A stretch of DNA of 64,000 nucleotides from an uncultured Spirochaetaceae bacterium (GTDB taxonomy: Bacteria > Spirochaetota > Spirochaetia > Sphaerochaetales > Sphaerochaetaceae), in contig CALXKU010000007.1 in the NCBI GenBank assembly GCA_944389025.1, forward strand, positions 1 through 64,000, read 5' to 3'. Under the pieces are notes generated by a model that was not told the DNA's origin, searched no databases, and saw only the letters and a list, made by a program, of their open reading frames with translations. How positions within the stretch are numbered: position 1 is the first letter of the stretch; each line of letters starts with the position of its first letter. Below, one piece after another: positions 31,165 through 44,924 of this stretch. The position numbers were made by a program, and so were the translations under genes.

Positions 31165-31895
31165 GAATTCTTCTTATCAGGAAAGAAAAGATAGAAGGCG
31201 GAGAATATGAGCTTTCTAAGAAAGAGAAAAACTATCTTAAGAATGTGCTCAGGCTCAAAGAAGACGATGCTTTCAAAGCAAAAGATGAGAGCGAAAAATT
31301 ATACGATGCGGTTTTAAAAGATGATCACCTTATACTTAGCGAGAGCGAGGAAAGCGCACCATATCTGGATGTGATGCCATCATTTAACGGACACTTTCAG
31401 AGAATACATCTTTACCAGGCAATACTGAAAGGAAAGAAGAACGAACGCGTGGTGAGAGACAGCCAGGAAGCGGGAATAGAACGCCTTACATTCATTTCCA
31501 CAGAGTTCACATCAACTGATTTCATAAAAGATCATGATAGAGAGCGTCTTGATGCCATAAGAAGGGAAGCGGTTCAACAGTCTGGTGCGAAAGTAATGGA
31601 GATATCCGATACTCTGGATTTTTCATATGCAATAAAAAGCGCTGAAGGAATAATACTGATTCTTCATCAGAGTCCCAGGGGCAATACAAAGAATATAAAA
31701 GAAGCTCTGGCAAATGCTGATAAAGACGATGTGATTTCTGTTTTCATAGGATCTGAAGGGGGGTTTTCAGACCGCGAATGCGATGAAGCTGAGAATAACG
31801 GTGCCATTCCAGTTCTGCTGAAGACGAACATACTTAGAGCGGAAAACGCATCAATTTATACCATATCCGCTATTCAGACGCTCTTAAATGAATGA
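31161..31895 (+). CDS. rsmE: 16S rRNA (uracil1498-N3)-methyltransferase RsmE
   Basis: This 244-residue SPOUT methyltransferase has an N-terminal PUA-like part and a C-terminal trefoil-knot domain with VFIGSEGGFSDRECDEAENNG and LLKTNILRAENA. It methylates U1498 of 16S rRNA. It is translationally coupled to the Ctp protease (4-base overlap). Confidence 0.94.
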   Translation: MRILLIRKEKIEGGEYELSKKEKNYLKNVLRLKEDDAFKAKDESEKLYDAVLKDDHLILSESEESAPYLDVMPSFNGHFQRIHLYQAILKGKKNERVVRDSQEAGIERLTFISTEFTSTDFIKDHDRERLDAIRREAVQQSGAKVMEISDTLDFSYAIKSAEGIILILHQSPRGNTKNIKEALANADKDDVISVFIGSEGGFSDRECDEAENNGAIPVLLKTNILRAENASIYTISAIQTLLNE

Positions 31896-32352
31896 AGAAA
31901 AGGAATTAAATGAAAAAAACATGTATATATAACGTACTAATACTGTTAGTATTTTAACAAACACTATATATAGCGTATTACTTTTTATTGTAGATATTCA
32001 TTAAGTATAAGAAATATTAGGAATTAGCAAAAAATCATACAATTGTCTATTATTGTGGAAAACATGTGAAAAACTTGCTTTTAGAGGAGGTTTTTCACTT
32101 ATAAATAACGATGCGATTATTATATGAATCTTATTAAAAAATAGTTATGTATTTACAATATATTTTATTATGTTATAAACAATTAACAATTATAACTTTT
32201 ACGTACTTTCAGAACACTTAATTCTATCTTTTCCTCTGTTTTCACATATTTTCCACACCCCTGTGGAAAACCTGTGGAAAACTTGAAAAAAAACCATATA
32301 TGGTGGTTCTATTTTTCTTCATGAAAACTGATAAAGCTGGTATAATTTTCTT
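31896..32352. other. AT-rich intergenic region with four exact DnaA-box-like sites
   Basis: This 457-bp gene-free stretch holds TGTGGAAAA or its complement at 32054-32062, 32249-32257, 32262-32270 and 32273-32281. The last three are within 33 bases. To the left lies very AT-rich sequence (about 31900-32245) suited to unwinding. The same 9-mer recurs beside dnaA at 43.4-43.5 kb. This may be a second origin element, an origin half, or a DnaA-titrating site. A small palindrome ACCATATATGGT lies at about 32293-32304. Confidence 0.6.
32341..32346 (+). promoter_or_regulatory. -10 element of the PfkB-family kinase gene, leaderless start
   Basis: TATAAT preceded by TGG (extended -10) ends 6 bases before the ATG at 32353; no ribosome site is present. 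Confidence 0.6.
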
Positions 32353-33351
32353 ATGGCCGTATATGGAATAGGAAACCCTTTAATAGACCTTTTATGCTTC
32401 GTAAAAGATGAGGACATAAGCGCACTCTCTCTTCATAAGGGATCGATGAATCTCATAGATGAGGACAAGAGGAAGGAAATTGTCGAATACATAAGAAAAA
32501 AAGAAATAATATACTCTTGCGGTGGATCCTGCCCTAATACGATGGTCACTCTTAAAAGTCTTGGAATAGATACGACTCTTGCAGGAGGAATAGGTTTTGA
32601 CGAGCTTGGAGATATGTACAAGACTAGGCTTAACGAGCTTGGTGTTAAGGACGAGCTTATAAAGAATGCCTCCCCTACAGGAACATCTATCATACTTGTA
32701 TCTGAAGACAGGGAAAGAACGATGTGTACTTATCTTGGAGCTAACAGGAACTTCTCGGACGATGATGTGAACCTGAATAGCGCGAAAGAAGCGGACATAT
32801 TCTATTTCACAGGTTACATGTGGGATACTGAAAGTCAGCAGAAAGCTATAAGAAAAGTGCTCGAAAAAAAGAAAGAGTACGGATTCAAGGTTGCGTTCGA
32901 CATAGCCGATCCATTCGCAGTCGGACGTTACAGACAGACGTTTTTGAACATATTAAAAGATTATGCGGACATAGTATTTGCAAACAGCGAGGAAGCACGC
33001 TCGCTTATAGATAACTACGATGCGTATGAATGTGCAAGAAGCATTGGAAAGATATGTCCCGTGGCAGTTGTTAAAAACGGTAAGAAAGGGTCATACATAT
33101 CCGAAAAAGGTAAAATGTATGAGATACCGATTTATGGCTCTTCAAAACCAGTAGATACGACCGGTGCCGGTGATACATATGCCGCAGGATTCCTTTATGG
33201 ACAGGAAAAAGGATATTCAATTGAGGATTCGGGAAAAATAGCTTCAATTCTTGCCGGAGAGATAATAAGCCAGACAGGGGCACAGTTCAGTAGGGATAAG
33301 AGCACGGAACTGAAGGAATATCTTGAGAATAATTTTCCATCAAATTATTGA
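32353..33351 (+). CDS. PfkB-family carbohydrate/nucleoside kinase (adenosine kinase-like)
   Basis: This 332-residue ribokinase-fold enzyme has the N-terminal GNPLIDLL, CGGSCPNTMVTLKSLG, and the C-terminal anion hole PVDTTGAGDTYAAGFLYG with catalytic Asp. Residue patterns near the start resemble adenosine kinase-like members rather than ribokinase or fructokinase, but the substrate cannot be fixed. The stop codon at 33349 overlaps a Fur-type operator for the next gene. Confidence 0.85.
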   Translation: MAVYGIGNPLIDLLCFVKDEDISALSLHKGSMNLIDEDKRKEIVEYIRKKEIIYSCGGSCPNTMVTLKSLGIDTTLAGGIGFDELGDMYKTRLNELGVKDELIKNASPTGTSIILVSEDRERTMCTYLGANRNFSDDDVNLNSAKEADIFYFTGYMWDTESQQKAIRKVLEKKKEYGFKVAFDIADPFAVGRYRQTFLNILKDYADIVFANSEEARSLIDNYDAYECARSIGKICPVAVVKNGKKGSYISEKGKMYEIPIYGSSKPVDTTGAGDTYAAGFLYGQEKGYSIEDSGKIASILAGEIISQTGAQFSRDKSTELKEYLENNFPSNY

Positions 33352-34703: not shown

Positions 34704-36059
34704 ATGTTTTTAGGACGCGATAAGGAACTTGGAAAACTCAAAAAAGAACTAGAGAAGGAAGGTAAGAGCGCTGTATTGATTTACGGGAGGCGCAGGATCG
34801 GTAAGACAACTCTTATATCTGAATCTTTGAAATCTGTTTCTGGAAAAATCATCAGATTTACAGCCGTACCTGATGAACTTTCCGAGAATGCAAGAAGATT
34901 GTCCAGAGCCTTAGGTGAAGCATATGGTATGCCTGGGTTCCAGATTCCTGACTTTGAATCTCTACTGAGATATATAGGGACATTGAAAGAGAAAATTATA
35001 TTGGAAATTGATGAATATCAGGATTTGAGAAAGAAAACTAATGGGGAACTTGTTGATGCTTATTTCAGAGATTTCATAGATTATGCTCCTGATAATATCA
35101 AAATAATCCTCTCTGGATCTGCTATACGGGTGATGAAAAACCTTTTACAGAAAGATAACCCATTATACAAAAGGTTTTCTCTTGAGATATCTTTAGGGGA
35201 ATTGAATTATCTTGAGGCATCTCTTTTCTACCCTCAGCGCAGTATAAGGGAGAAGATTGCCTTGTATTCTGTTTTTGGAGGAATTCCAATGATTCTCTCC
35301 ATGATAGATCCACAGTTATCTGTAGAAGAAAACATCAGATCCCTTTTATTGGAAAGGACGGGATTTGCCCGTTCTTATACGGAAGATGTTCTGTATGCAG
35401 AACTGAAAAACTCTGGTGGTGCTTATTCCGTGATTACACGTATTGGGAATGGAAGAAAGAGTTTTTCTCAGTTAAAGGCTTGTTTAGAGGATGAAGAAAG
35501 CAGGAACTCTCTTGATTACACGCTTGAACAGTTACAAAAATCCGATTTTATAGAAAAGAAACAGCCTATAAATATAAAAGATAGCAGGAGAAAGAGGTTC
35601 TACGAACTGAAATCGAACATGCTGCGCTTCCACTTGTCATACATTGAGAAGAATCCAGATGCAATCGCAACTCCGGCATTTTTAGAAAAATATATCATGC
35701 CATCTATTAATACTTTTGTTTCTTATAGATTTGAAGATATTGTACGTCAATGGTTTTTAATTCAAGTTGAAAGAGGAATTCGCAACGACATAATAAACAT
35801 AGGCACGTATTGGTATGATGATGCCAAGACAAAAACCAATGGAGAGTTTGATGTTGCACTGGAAACGCTTGAAGGATATGAAATCTATGAAGTGAAATAT
35901 CTGACATCGACAATGAAAGAAGAGCTTGTGAAAGAAGAAATGGATAAGATTATGAGGATAGAAGGTATCAAGATTTCTTCAATAGGTTTTGTATCTTCTT
36001 CCGGTTTTGAAATACCAGGAGAAAAACGGATTTCAGGAGAAGAACTCTATAATCTTTAA
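34704..36059 (+). CDS. AAA+ ATPase with C-terminal DUF234 nuclease-like domain
   Basis: This 451-residue protein starts MFLGRDKELGKLKKEL, then Walker A YGRRRIGKTTL (about 26-36) and Walker B ILEIDEYQDL (about 96-105), typical of the archaeal-type ATPase family found in bacteria and archaea. The C-terminal third (about 310-451) resembles DUF234, with GEFDVALETLEGYEIYEVKY, a PD-(D/E)xK-like pattern. Such genes are scattered, often transferred, and of unknown role. It sits in an AT-rich accessory patch beside a TnpB. Confidence 0.85.
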   Translation: MFLGRDKELGKLKKELEKEGKSAVLIYGRRRIGKTTLISESLKSVSGKIIRFTAVPDELSENARRLSRALGEAYGMPGFQIPDFESLLRYIGTLKEKIILEIDEYQDLRKKTNGELVDAYFRDFIDYAPDNIKIILSGSAIRVMKNLLQKDNPLYKRFSLEISLGELNYLEASLFYPQRSIREKIALYSVFGGIPMILSMIDPQLSVEENIRSLLLERTGFARSYTEDVLYAELKNSGGAYSVITRIGNGRKSFSQLKACLEDEESRNSLDYTLEQLQKSDFIEKKQPINIKDSRRKRFYELKSNMLRFHLSYIEKNPDAIATPAFLEKYIMPSINTFVSYRFEDIVRQWFLIQVERGIRNDIINIGTYWYDDAKTKTNGEFDVALETLEGYEIYEVKYLTSTMKEELVKEEMDKIMRIEGIKISSIGFVSSSGFEIPGEKRISGEELYNL

Positions 36060-36076
36060 CCTTAATTCATGAGAAG

Positions 36077-36105
36077 TCACCATCTTCAATTTCATAAGAT
36101 GGTGA
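36077..36105. repeat. perfect 10-bp hairpin after the AAA/DUF234 gene
   Basis: TCACCATCTT and AAGATGGTGA enclose a 9-base loop, flanked by ATTCAT and ATGAAT. No T run follows. It could be a terminator, a repeated element, or part of the left end of the TnpB element. Confidence 0.5.
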
Positions 36106-36263
36106 TGAATCATGTAGGATCGCAGATTCTATATATATCAATAAGTATAGAGTTTTTATATATTTTCTTGCATTATAAGTATATATATTATACTCATGTC
36201 ATGGCCGAATCAGTTGACGAGACGGGAGGGAGAAGAGATGGGAAAGTGACCGTCTCCAAGTGA

Positions 36264-37472
36264 ATGGAGTTCAGGATAAACCCTACTATGGAGCAGAAGA
36301 TCCTCATATGGAAGACCTTCGGCTGCTGCCGCTTCGTCTGGAAAAATCTGCTTGACGAGCGCATCAGCTATGAGAAGATGAATAAGGGAAAACTTCTCAA
36401 TACAACACCAGCCCATCTGAAGAAGGACAATTCATTCCTTACCGAGGTTGATTCCCTCTCTCTTTCAAACACGCAGCTGAACCTGAACCAGGCATGTAAG
36501 AAGCTCTTCCCAAAAGGGAAAACTCCTAAGTTCAGGGCGAAGGAGAAGGACAAACGCTCATATACAACGAACTGGATAAACAACAACATTGAGATAATCC
36601 TCAAGAGTGATAGAGAGAACTATATCAAGCTGCCGAAACTCGGAAGAGTGCGCATCATACTCCACCGTAGCATACCGGATGGGTGGAGGATGAAGCATGC
36701 GACTATAAAGGAGACGGCAAGCGGGAAGTTCTATATATCTCTCACATTCGATGTGGATACAGAGCCAATAGAGACAAGGAAGAAGTTCGAGAAGGTCGAG
36801 ACTTTCGACTACTCGATGCCATCCCTTGTCGTCTCCTCTTCCGGAGAGAACGACATCACGAAAGATGACATCCGCTGGTACCGCAATCTTGAGAAGAGGA
36901 TTGCAAAGGAACAGAGGAGGCTCTCGAGGATGCGGTACGGCTCTGCTAATTACTGGGAGCAGAAACACAAAATCGGGAAGCTTCATGAGAAAGCAAGTGC
37001 AAGGAGGAATGACTTCCTGCATAAGCTCTCCAGGAAAGTCTCCGACACATTTGATGCCGTCGTAGTGGAGGACATGAACCTCCAGCACATGTCCAAAGCT
37101 CTGAATTTCGGCAAGAGCGCATACGACAACGGATATGGCATGCTGAGGAACATGCTTTCCTACAAGCTGAATAATCAGGGAAAGGTGCTTGTAAAGGTTG
37201 ATAGGTTCTTCCCCTCGAGTAAACGATGCTCTGCTTGCCATGAGATAAACCACGAACTGAAGCTCTCGGATAGACAGTGGACGTGCAAGAGCTACGGTAC
37301 ACATCATGACAGAGACAAGAACAGTTGTAAGAACCTGCTGGATGAGGGAAAAGACATCCTTAACCGCTGGGCTAGCGGGGATAGCTCATTGATACTGGCA
37401 CCATCAGGTGTCTTAAGTGAGAAGAAGCTCCATCCTCAGGCTCACAGTAATGTGAGACAGGATGGAGAGTAA
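36264..37472 (+). CDS. tnpB: IS200/IS605-type TnpB (OrfB) with a degenerate zinc finger
   Basis: This 402-residue RNA-guided nuclease-type protein has a helix-turn-helix and REC-like N-terminal half. The RuvC residues are present: Asp182 (FDYSMPS), Glu269 (VVVEDMN) and Asp351 (HHDRDKN). The zinc finger reads C322, C325, C341 and then Tyr344 where the fourth Cys should be. The N-terminus is short: FRINP begins at residue 3, and an in-frame TGA at 36261-36263 directly precedes the ATG, with an open frame before it. No TnpA gene is present. Probably a decaying or non-autonomous element. Confidence 0.88.
   Translation: MEFRINPTMEQKILIWKTFGCCRFVWKNLLDERISYEKMNKGKLLNTTPAHLKKDNSFLTEVDSLSLSNTQLNLNQACKKLFPKGKTPKFRAKEKDKRSYTTNWINNNIEIILKSDRENYIKLPKLGRVRIILHRSIPDGWRMKHATIKETASGKFYISLTFDVDTEPIETRKKFEKVETFDYSMPSLVVSSSGENDITKDDIRWYRNLEKRIAKEQRRLSRMRYGSANYWEQKHKIGKLHEKASARRNDFLHKLSRKVSDTFDAVVVEDMNLQHMSKALNFGKSAYDNGYGMLRNMLSYKLNNQGKVLVKVDRFFPSSKRCSACHEINHELKLSDRQWTCKSYGTHHDRDKNSCKNLLDEGKDILNRWASGDSSLILAPSGVLSEKKLHPQAHSNVRQDGE
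36264..37472 (+). mobile_element. IS605-family remnant/TnpB-only element (ends not resolved)
   Basis: It is recognised by the TnpB gene and the large hairpin at its 3' end. No companion TnpA and no clear left-end boundary are visible, so true ends are not given; the interval is that of the gene. It lies with the AAA/DUF234 gene in an accessory patch inside an otherwise housekeeping region. Confidence 0.6.
37428..37467 (+). ncRNA. omegaRNA-like hairpin at the 3' end of tnpB
   Basis: The last codons of tnpB encode a two-tier hairpin: outer CTCCATCCT/AGGATGGAG (37428-37436 with 37459-37467) and inner CTCACA/TGTGAG (37441-37446 with 37451-37456). TnpB guide RNAs are usually made from the gene's 3' end and right end, so this fits their scaffold. 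The full RNA limits are unknown. Confidence 0.5.
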
Positions 37473-40784: not shown

Positions 40785-41084
40785 TTAATAAGATTCTACT
40801 ATTACCTTGATATACTTTATATCGTCTGATGGAAAAAAGCTGTTGTATTTATCTATGATTCTTTTTTTCTGAGCAAGAATGAGCGGAATATACCTGGTAT
40901 CATCAGCAGCTATGAAAAGAGTTTTTTTCTCTATTCGTAAAAAAGAAGAATACTGACTTATTCTAGGACCTGATATCTCAGGCCATCTTTTTTTAATCTC
41001 CTCTGATTTAGAATCCCTAGTCTGAATGATTTTCTCAATTATGGGAGCAAGAACTTCCTTTGCATCCTTGTAATACTGACTCAT
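40785..41084 (-). CDS. DUF721 protein, DciA-like replicative helicase loader
   Basis: A 99-residue DUF721 protein (IKKRWPEISGPRISQYSSFLRIEKKTLFIAADDTRY). DciA proteins load or operate the replicative helicase in bacteria without DnaC; the recF-adjacent location is the usual one. Its ATG overlaps the recF stop by 4 bases. Confidence 0.85.
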   Translation of the reverse strand: MSQYYKDAKEVLAPIIEKIIQTRDSKSEEIKKRWPEISGPRISQYSSFLRIEKKTLFIAADDTRYIPLILAQKKRIIDKYNSFFPSDDIKYIKVIVESY

Positions 41085-42161: not shown

Positions 42162-43265
42162 TTAAGCCTGCATAGGCATTATTATGAAGATGTAATCTGA
42201 TTCCGGTTCACTTACAAGTCCTATTGCTGTGCTTGAGCTGTTGAAACAGATAGAGAAATTATCACTCTCTATTTTCTTTATAGCATCAAGAAGGAAATTG
42301 TAATTGAAGGAAAGTCTCATCTCTGGACCGTCATAATCGCATTTGATTACATTCTTACTGTTTCCATCGGAATCCTCTCCGCTTATCATTATGCCATCAC
42401 CGTTGATTTCAAATATGATCTTCTTACTCTTCATCTCAATTGTGACAGAAATAAGATTAATAGCATTTAGCATCTCAGCGGTATTTACAACAGCCTTGTA
42501 TTCGAATGACTTTGGAATGACACGCTCATAATTAGGGTAGTTTCCAGTAATGAGAAGTGAATACATGTATCTTCCTTCAATATTTGCAAATGCATAGCCG
42601 TCCTTGAAAGAAAGACTGAGAACACCGTCCCCTGATCCAACCATTTTAAGGTTACTAAGGAAGTTTACAGGAACTATGGAAGGGATGAAAGTGTCAATCT
42701 CATGTTCAAAACTTCTCTTAACACAATTCAGTCTCTTTCCATCGGTTGCTACCATTACAAGCTTATCATTCTTGTATTCGACATATACTCCCGTAAGGAA
42801 GAATCTTGATTCCTCATGACCTACCGCATAACTGGTCTTATCAACCATATCGAAGAAAAGATTCTGCCCAACAGTGAAATAATCTTCCTCAGGATATTCA
42901 ATCATCTCAGGGAACTTATCGGAATCAACAGTTCTGATATTTACGATGAATTTTGATTCTTTAGAATTCTTTATTGATAGATTGTCATTTTCCTGGCTTA
43001 TTTCGAGCTCTGTATCCGAGTTTATGTTCTTAAGCACATCAAGGAATTTCTCACAGAGAACAGTTGTACTTCCCGGTACTATCGTATTTACCTCAATTGA
43101 AGATATGAATCCATTCTTTGAGTCTGTTGCCTTTATTGTCAGTGTATTGTTCTTGTTTTCAAGTAAAACGTTGCTTGTTATTGATAGTGCGTTCCTCTTG
43201 GTTGTGAAATTAGATGCGTAAGATATTTCTTTTCTTAGAGTTTCGCATGAACAGATGAATTTCAT
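42162..43265 (-). CDS. dnaN: DNA polymerase III beta subunit (sliding clamp)
   Basis: This 367-residue protein has three clamp folds and starts MKFICSCETLRKEISYASNF. The end, YIFIIMPMQA, resembles the MPMR-type C-terminus of clamps with Gln in place of Arg. AGGAGG precedes the ATG. Confidence 0.96.
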   Translation of the reverse strand: MKFICSCETLRKEISYASNFTTKRNALSITSNVLLENKNNTLTIKATDSKNGFISSIEVNTIVPGSTTVLCEKFLDVLKNINSDTELEISQENDNLSIKNSKESKFIVNIRTVDSDKFPEMIEYPEEDYFTVGQNLFFDMVDKTSYAVGHEESRFFLTGVYVEYKNDKLVMVATDGKRLNCVKRSFEHEIDTFIPSIVPVNFLSNLKMVGSGDGVLSLSFKDGYAFANIEGRYMYSLLITGNYPNYERVIPKSFEYKAVVNTAEMLNAINLISVTIEMKSKKIIFEINGDGIMISGEDSDGNSKNVIKCDYDGPEMRLSFNYNFLLDAIKKIESDNFSICFNSSSTAIGLVSEPESDYIFIIMPMQA

Positions 43266-43589
43266 TTTTCCTCCTGATGAATTACTGCTTTATTATAACA
43301 TATTTAAAGGTAGTAGCAGTATTAGTATATGTGAAAAACGTGGAAAACTCATTTATTTTATTATATATGATTAAATTATTATGTGGAAAACTATGTTGAA
43401 AAAGTATCCTCTTTTCCACAGCTTTTCACAGTTGGATTAGCCAAATGAATTTTTTTTATCAAAAATGGCGTAAGAAAATTCAAGATTATTAACAGGTTTT
43501 TACCTTGTTTTTACCTACTTTTCCACAGGTTTTCCACAGAAATTGTGGAAAACTCTGCTTAAGAAATGAAGAATTTAAGCTGAGAATAT
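43266..43589. other. dnaA-dnaN intergenic region with DnaA-box cluster, likely oriC
   Basis: Exact TGTGGAAAA or TTTTCCACA sites lie at 43382-43390 (+), 43412-43420 (-), 43519-43527 (-), 43530-43538 (-) and 43544-43552 (+). A one-mismatch copy (CGTGGAAAA) is at 43339-43347. Short AT-rich stretches lie between and to the left. With dnaA and dnaN on either side this is the best oriC candidate. Gene polarity diverges at 44.9-45.2 kb, so replication may start slightly to the right. Confidence 0.8.
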
Positions 43590-44924
43590 TCACTTTTTAA
43601 GGTTGTTTGTTATGCTCTCAATAGCTCTTTTTATGCTCTCATCACTTTCTTCTATACTTTTTATCTTGTTGATTGCATAACTTACAGTAGTATGGTCCTT
43701 ACTATCGAAATACTTTCCTATTTCAGTAAGAGAGAGATTTGTCATTGTACTTGAAAGATACATTGATATGTGTCTTGCAAGGGATACGTTCTTATTCCTG
43801 CTCTTTCCCCTGATATCGAATGATGATACGTTGAAATAAGATGCGGTCTGCCCTATTATCTGGTCAATCGTTATCTCTGTGTTTTTTATCATCTGAGTAG
43901 GAATGAAGTTCTTTATATGCTCCATGGCTATCTCTTTTGTTATCTCACGTCCTACCAGTTCGGAGAATGAATAGAGGGTCGTAAGAGCACCTTCGAGATC
44001 CCTGACATTAGTTTTAATGTTCATGCAGATATATTCCAGAACATCCTGCGAAATCTTGAAATTGAGGTCCTTGCATTTTTTCAGTGCTATGGCCATCCTT
44101 GTCTCGTACTGTGGTGGCTGAAGGTCAACATTAGCACCCTTTCTGAATCTCGTTATAAGTCTTTCGTTTATTCCTGTAAGCTCTGTTAGAGGTCGGTCGC
44201 ATGTGAATACGATCTGCTTATTTTTCTCCGTCAGTTCATTGAACGTATGGAATATTTCTTCCTGTGTGCTTACCTTGTCTGCGATGAAATGGATATCATC
44301 GATAAGCAGAACATCCGCTGTTCTATACTTATTTTTGAACTTTGCATTCGCGGTCCTGTTTGAAATCGCATTTATAAGTTCATTAGTGAATGTTTCTGCT
44401 GTCACATATATGACCTTCATTTTCGGATTATGATCATAAATGTAGTTTCCAATTGCCTGAATGAGGTGAGTCTTTCCTAGTCCAACGCCACCGTAAATTA
44501 GGCATGGGTTGAAACTGGTTCCTGGGTTATTAGAAATTACCTTGGCCACGTTGCAGGCAAATAGGTTGTTCTCTCCTATTATGAAATTATCGAACGTATA
44601 TTCGCTGTTAAGGGTCTCATTAACAGCTTTCTTTTTCTCAGAAAGTTTTGTTATCTTTTTCTCTTGTGGTTTTTCTTCTTTTATCTGATCATCCACTACG
44701 AGATTTATGCTTATATCGGTACCTGCGAAATCGGAAAGAACGTTTAAGGCCTGATCAAGACATTTTTTCTTGAATGAGTCGAGATAGAAAAGAGAGGAGA
44801 AAGATAATGTTATTCCGGTGGCGCTTTCATCCTTGAAATGAGCGTTTCTAAGCCACATCTGACCCGATGAGGGCATCGTTTGATTTAATCTTTCTACCGC
44901 TTGTTCCCAAAGTTCTTTCAACAT
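43590..44924 (-). CDS. dnaA: chromosomal replication initiator DnaA
   Basis: This 444-residue initiator has domain I (1-80), a charged linker (about 85-110), an AAA+ domain III (Walker A GGVGLGKTHL, Walker B VLLIDDIHF) and a C-terminal domain IV with SLTEIGKYFDSKDHTTVSYAINKI that binds DnaA boxes. It would act on the TTTTCCACA sites in both clusters. No strong Shine-Dalgarno is seen before the ATG. Confidence 0.97.
   Translation of the reverse strand: MLKELWEQAVERLNQTMPSSGQMWLRNAHFKDESATGITLSFSSLFYLDSFKKKCLDQALNVLSDFAGTDISINLVVDDQIKEEKPQEKKITKLSEKKKAVNETLNSEYTFDNFIIGENNLFACNVAKVISNNPGTSFNPCLIYGGVGLGKTHLIQAIGNYIYDHNPKMKVIYVTAETFTNELINAISNRTANAKFKNKYRTADVLLIDDIHFIADKVSTQEEIFHTFNELTEKNKQIVFTCDRPLTELTGINERLITRFRKGANVDLQPPQYETRMAIALKKCKDLNFKISQDVLEYICMNIKTNVRDLEGALTTLYSFSELVGREITKEIAMEHIKNFIPTQMIKNTEITIDQIIGQTASYFNVSSFDIRGKSRNKNVSLARHISMYLSSTMTNLSLTEIGKYFDSKDHTTVSYAINKIKSIEESDESIKRAIESITNNLKK

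Follow-up and report, generated by a model that had tools for sequence, protein, structure and literature searches.

DNA sites that control DnaA from outside the replication origin are little known beyond Escherichia coli and Bacillus subtilis. The best-matching example is E. coli datA, which is always close to oriC, contains five DnaA boxes with an IHF site between them, and in which spacing matters (PMC4585315). In the bipartite oriC of B. subtilis (incC plus a distal DnaA box), boxes and DnaA-trios at dnaA-dnaN are combined with a further box group at some distance (PMC6669920), and oriC1/oriC2 of Helicobacter pylori likewise comprises two DnaA-box groups, one of which has the unwinding signature (PMC8235120).

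Here, we describe a second DnaA-box cluster next to rsmE in a gut spirochaete, found in a stretch of 64,000 nucleotides that we refer to as the window. Like datA, it is a non-coding group of five DnaA boxes with conserved box spacing, near but outside the putative oriC. It differs from datA in its own sequence, its location beside rsmE, its 11-bp tandem pairs, the helical spacing of 208 or 230 bp between them and the presence of flanking NrdR boxes; where datA has the IHF site, the cluster has a conserved AT-rich core. Moreover, datA stimulates ATP hydrolysis by DnaA, which for the rsmE cluster is a predicted activity. Unlike in B. subtilis, the second box group is linked to rsmE and not located in the dnaA promoter region, with a distance of about 11 kb in the window and of 6-95 kb in relatives. 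The two halves of the H. pylori origin flank dnaA closely, while the two box groups of the window are separated by 11 kb and roughly a dozen genes. The palindrome at the cluster is the one found upstream of nrdD in the same genome, as in NrdR-regulated RNR promoters (PMC9110341, PMC12051234), but there is no RNR gene here and the palindromes are 327-344 bp apart around the DnaA boxes in most species. In the open-access literature, the coverage of which is incomplete, we found neither a distal DnaA-box locus in spirochaetes nor NrdR boxes at one described elsewhere. We propose that the cluster is probably a real replication-control site, as opposed to a chance grouping of boxes or an additional origin.

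A DnaA-box cluster in the gap between rsmE and a kinase gene

Judged from the named relatives of its DnaA, the source species belongs to Candidatus Ornithospirochaeta (Spirochaetia). The window contains, in this order, rsmE (16S rRNA methyltransferase family, PF04452; 31161-31895, plus strand), the gap harboring the cluster, a PfkB-family kinase gene (pfkB, PF00294; 32353-33351, plus strand), fur and a rubrerythrin gene (both plus strand), an ATPase and a TnpB gene, and then jag, yidC, rnpA, recF, dnaN (42162-43265, minus strand; TIGR00663, 265.5 bits) and dnaA (43590-44924, minus strand; TIGR00362, 473.5 bits), followed by gyrB and gyrA on the plus strand. The DUF234 ATPase and the TnpB gene (IS200/IS605 type) occupy positions 34704-37472 between the rubrerythrin gene and jag; no TnpA adjoining the TnpB gene was seen, and both genes are absent at the same place in L085, the closest relative fetched. 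In addition, a small conserved open frame without NCBIfam match is located between recF and rnpA (40785-41084).

The initial annotation had reported four exact copies of the 9-mer TGTGGAAAA in a very AT-rich gap, three of them within 33 bases, and had considered such clustering unlikely by chance. All of this was confirmed. The copies start at 32054 (plus), 32249 (minus), 32262 (plus) and 32273 (plus), the last three spanning 33 bases, and the gap from the end of rsmE at 31895 to the kinase start at 32353 measures 457 bp with about 75% A+T. Nine copies of TGTGGAAAA are present in the 64 kb, whereas dinucleotide-shuffled versions yield 0.81 and nine was not reached in any of 100 shuffles. All nine copies fall into two clusters, one in the dnaA-dnaN gap and one in the rsmE-pfkB gap. 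The genome of 2,314,158 bases (2.31 Mb) contains 48 copies, and these two places are the only ones with at least three copies within 500 bp.

A fifth, variant box, TGTGAAAAA, can be added to the four (32065-32073, plus strand). It starts 11 bp past the first exact box (32054-32062, plus strand) and forms with it a degenerate left tandem pair, at a position where many relatives carry a full pair. The right group consists of an exact box in reverse orientation (32249-32257, minus strand), also supported by the alignment, and the tandem pair TGTGGAAAACCTGTGGAAAA with an 11-bp period (32262-32281, plus strand), 208 bp from the left pair. Between the two groups, an alignment of 22 genus members revealed two conserved AT-rich blocks, TTATATGAATCTTATT at 32120-32135 (consensus TTATATA) and TTATGTTATAAACAATTA at 32168-32185.

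Conservation of the cluster in the genus and beyond

The initial annotation had suggested comparing gene order and box clusters in relatives, and conservation was clearly found from the genus to the class level. Where the contig covers it, genus members keep the order rsmE ... jag-yidC-rnpA-recF-dnaN-dnaA / gyrB and carry two clusters separated by 7-15 kb, of which one occupies the dnaA-dnaN gap and the other is located downstream of rsmE. The rsmE cluster was present in 21 of 21 relatives with a readable gap and carries the tandem pair TGTGGAAAAcnTGTGGAAAA, which was found downstream of rsmE in 20 of them and in degenerate form in the 21st; elsewhere in the fetched stretches, this pair occurred only in two dnaA-dnaN gaps. 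The divergent clade of L108 and L113 shows the same geometry built from TGTGAAAAA boxes. The distance from pair to pair is 208 bp in the clade of the window or 229-231 bp in many species with two pairs.

The surroundings of the cluster vary. The kinase gene, which is repeatedly lost, is missing beside it in L093, L094, L095, L102 and L103, and the fur-like and rubrerythrin genes next to jag flip orientation (L095-L103), while the DnaA cluster is stable. In one clade of the genus, an unannotated frame of about 350-370 codons is located between rsmE and the cluster, namely in L095 (2386-3480), with equivalents in L096, L098, L101-L103 and L108. In G077, rsmE-type tandem pairs with NrdR boxes are found on two contigs (C138:2980-3229 and C142:30909), reflecting either a duplicate or a mixed bin.

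At the order level, we scanned 139 genomes together with their dnaA positions. Many g32 genomes, a number of which are complete, have the tandem pair at about 14.6 kb from dnaA; the corresponding distances are 30 kb for G092 (also complete), 11 kb for G050, 8.8 kb for G067 and 9.7 kb for G096. In the other genera of the family, the cluster lies 9-30 kb from dnaA, most fetched loci have the rsmE-pfkB arrangement, and a further box is usually present 222-240 bp away. In all family genomes with both loci on one contig, the cluster is on the dnaN side, 7-30 kb from dnaA. Across the class, a box pair 205-235 bp apart was detected in 193 of 395 genomes, a count that takes in some dnaA-upstream clusters, versus 7 for the reversed pattern. 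Among the fetched loci, those of families f3, f4, f6 and f26 have the box pair at a distance of 4-6 kb from rsmE; in L263-L265, the pair directly follows jag. In family f6, the site is only 4-5 kb from rsmE although 75-95 kb separate it from dnaA, and family f26 has a dnaA-upstream cluster in addition to the rsmE cluster; overall, the distance to dnaA in relatives ranges from 6 to 95 kb. In L253, L254 and L255 of family f26, the outer boxes of the dnaA-upstream cluster are 207-208 bp apart, which is the spacing of the distal cluster in the window.

Outside the genus, box spacings are periodic at about 10-10.5 bp (P about 5e-5, a value that serves as a guide only, because related genomes were counted as independent and dnaA-upstream and chance hits were included, in a statistic to which each tandem pair contributes two distances).

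The presumed origin in the dnaA-dnaN gap

The cluster on the dnaA side proved to lie downstream of dnaA, between dnaA and dnaN, and not upstream. It comprises five exact boxes within 43382-43552 (43382 plus, 43412 minus, 43519 minus, 43530 minus and 43544 plus) and two variant boxes on the plus strand, TGTGAAAAA at 43330 and CGTGGAAAA at 43339 (together 43330-43347). The latter directly precede a degenerate DnaA-trio tract at the dnaN end of the gap (TACTAATACTGCTACTAC on the dnaA strand; 43310-43327, minus strand), the presumed unwinding site of the origin, which was read by eye, as it is too degenerate to be picked up by a strict scan for trios. Most relatives have runs of 3-6 DnaA-trios at the same end of the gap, after the boxes, and no boxes were seen upstream of dnaA in the genus, that is, in the loci of the relatives and in the window. 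The origin of Borrelia lies between dnaA and dnaN, and we infer the same position for the species of the window.

Two marks of an origin, DnaA-trios after the boxes and a skew change point, were both absent from the rsmE cluster. Trio runs there had a length of 1-3, none above shuffles in the 23 clusters tested. For the skew, the 4-fold sites in the complete genome of the relative G092 were fitted with a logistic model that included gene strand as a covariate. The change point was at +5 kb, that is, at dnaA, and the position of the cluster at 30.4 kb was rejected, both by a scaled log-likelihood difference of -10 and by bootstrapping (0% of replicates at the cluster); in G106, the change point was uninformative. 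The inflection at the cluster that the initial annotation had proposed to look for is thus absent in G092, which agrees with the site being distinct from the origin. Skew within the window was discarded as an origin signal, as its two minima, located at about 30 kb and about 44 kb, just follow gene orientation; the gene-strand effect dominates GC skew in relatives too.

Putative NrdR boxes flank the cluster in Ornithospirochaeta

NrdR is encoded in the genome. Scanning the 64-kb window with a matrix built only from nrdD promoter sites returned the two flanks of the cluster as the best hits: the near-palindrome ACACTATATATAGCGT on the left (31961-31976, plus strand; 23.9 bits) and, 330 bp from it, AAACCATATATGGTGG on the right (32291-32306, plus strand; 14.7 bits). 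The palindrome core CYATATMTRGYG occurs at three places in the genome, namely at both cluster flanks and just upstream of nrdD, and the same box precedes nrdD in four further genus genomes. The flanks hence carry the palindrome with conserved C and G seen at the species' own nrd promoters. A box pair with a 14-17 or 24-27 bp spacer was not found at the cluster. The nrdD-upstream box of this genome has a partner at 31 bp centre-to-centre; beside the left cluster box, there is only a degenerate partner 41 bp to the left (4.1 bits), and the right box, which has an imperfect left half, is without a 31-bp partner.

The right box scores at least 8 bits in 19 of the 22 genus members. In 19 of 22 species it is at most about 13 bp from the last DnaA box or overlaps it, the overlap amounting to about 2 bp in one clade. 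The near clade has a complete left box, of which the other clade retains just ACACTAG. Distances between the left and right boxes are 327-332, 341-344 and 352 bp (one 315 bp), corresponding to steps of about one helical turn. The matrix scan gave no convincing NrdR boxes in the clusters of other genera or in dnaA-dnaN gaps, the exceptions being one site of 12.5 bits in the gap of L094 and sites of 9-10 bits in L262 and L121. Given their absence from the clusters of other genera, the NrdR boxes cannot belong to the ancestral function.

A working model for DnaA control at the rsmE locus

Region 31961-32306 is an rsmE-linked element of grouped boxes with helical spacing around an AT-rich core and without an unwinding signature. 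We consider it likely that this element is dedicated to the control of DnaA and distinct from the origin. The initial annotation had offered three readings of the cluster, and among these a datA-like site, predicted to inactivate DnaA, fits best. Its several DnaA boxes lie outside the presumed oriC and in its vicinity, at about 11 kb in the window and 7-30 kb across the family, with a larger distance of 75-95 kb in family f6.

In our working model, to which we give about even chances, the site acts as an origin-proximal, datA-like DnaA-looping brake that is here coupled to dNTP sensing. DnaA molecules bound to the two box groups would meet across the looped core, about 20-22 helical turns long, and the resulting complex would titrate DnaA or promote its inactivation. 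Because the site is only about 11 kb from the origin, it would be doubled right after each initiation and might therefore provide a fast post-initiation brake, as does E. coli datA. Two HU/IHF-family proteins are encoded and a search for an Hda orthologue returned none above the cut-off, which makes a DNA-based brake on DnaA plausible. In Ornithospirochaeta, NrdR, which binds DNA with both dATP and ATP present, would occupy the two flanking boxes and either make the loop more stable or compete with DnaA for the right-hand pair, so that dNTP supply would modulate DnaA control. The sign of control (brake or helper) and the role of NrdR are the least certain steps of this model. Its broadest form, a Spirochaetia-wide, hitherto unrecognized DnaA-looping locus beside rsmE that acquired NrdR boxes in Ornithospirochaeta, so that the dATP/ATP-sensing repressor directly modulates DnaA availability, is a tentative proposal. 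If true, it would hard-wire replication initiation to the dNTP pools. Feedback of dNTP supply on initiation is an old question that the NrdR boxes would make directly testable, and a site kept with helical spacing across much of the class, also in complete genomes of culturable relatives, is a ready experimental system.

Alternative explanations

The main rival to the datA-like brake is a helper function, in which the cluster is the distal subregion of a bipartite origin and long-range looping brings rsmE-bound DnaA to the dnaA-dnaN gap with its boxes and trios, where it aids unwinding. The constant location of the site on the dnaN side, 7-30 kb from dnaA in the family, and the lack of boxes upstream of dnaA in the genus speak for such an arrangement, as does the distal box of B. 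subtilis, which acts in either orientation via a loop (PMC6669920). However, loops in B. subtilis were described as spanning hundreds of bases, the f6 site stays near rsmE but not near dnaA, and f26 has a dnaA-upstream cluster as well. The last two findings weaken the bipartite reading, already raised in the initial annotation, and we regard it as rather unlikely. Distance also bears on the datA-like brake, since one that is strictly timed may not tolerate a variation of 6-95 kb.

A site that recharges ADP-DnaA to ATP-DnaA, like DARS1 and DARS2, would share the compact high-affinity boxes, the conserved spacing and the location outside the origin (PMC4585315), but the cluster lies beside the origin and not far out on the arm, making this function improbable.

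We also consider it doubtful that the cluster serves as a promoter under DnaA and NrdR control for the PfkB-family kinase or another gene nearby. DnaA and NrdR sites co-occur at RNR promoters of other bacteria, a TATAAT-like box is found just before the kinase start codon, and the right NrdR box is upstream of the kinase. Nevertheless, no conserved gene starts at the site, the cluster is kept in the five loci without the kinase, and in three of these (L095, L102, L103) the flanking genes converge on it, leaving no downstream gene to drive. A promoter scan of the site gave no more hits than shuffles, and an RNA family search of the rsmE-pfkB gap yielded nothing near threshold.

Finally, a second or relocated origin, the remaining suggestion of the initial annotation, is AT-rich and rich in DnaA boxes as expected but highly improbable, given that the trios are in the dnaA-dnaN gap and not at rsmE and that the G092 skew switches at dnaA and not 30 kb away.

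Regarding the history of the locus, we rejected a split of an ancestral oriC by an inversion of about 32-45 kb that left the upstream half at rsmE, as the whole family shares one arrangement and f26 has both dnaA-upstream and rsmE clusters. As a separate observation, the dnaA-dnaN gap of the related genome G094 (L177, 3361-3675) is unusually dense in boxes, with some 16 TGTGGATAA copies, many of them in 11-bp tandem.
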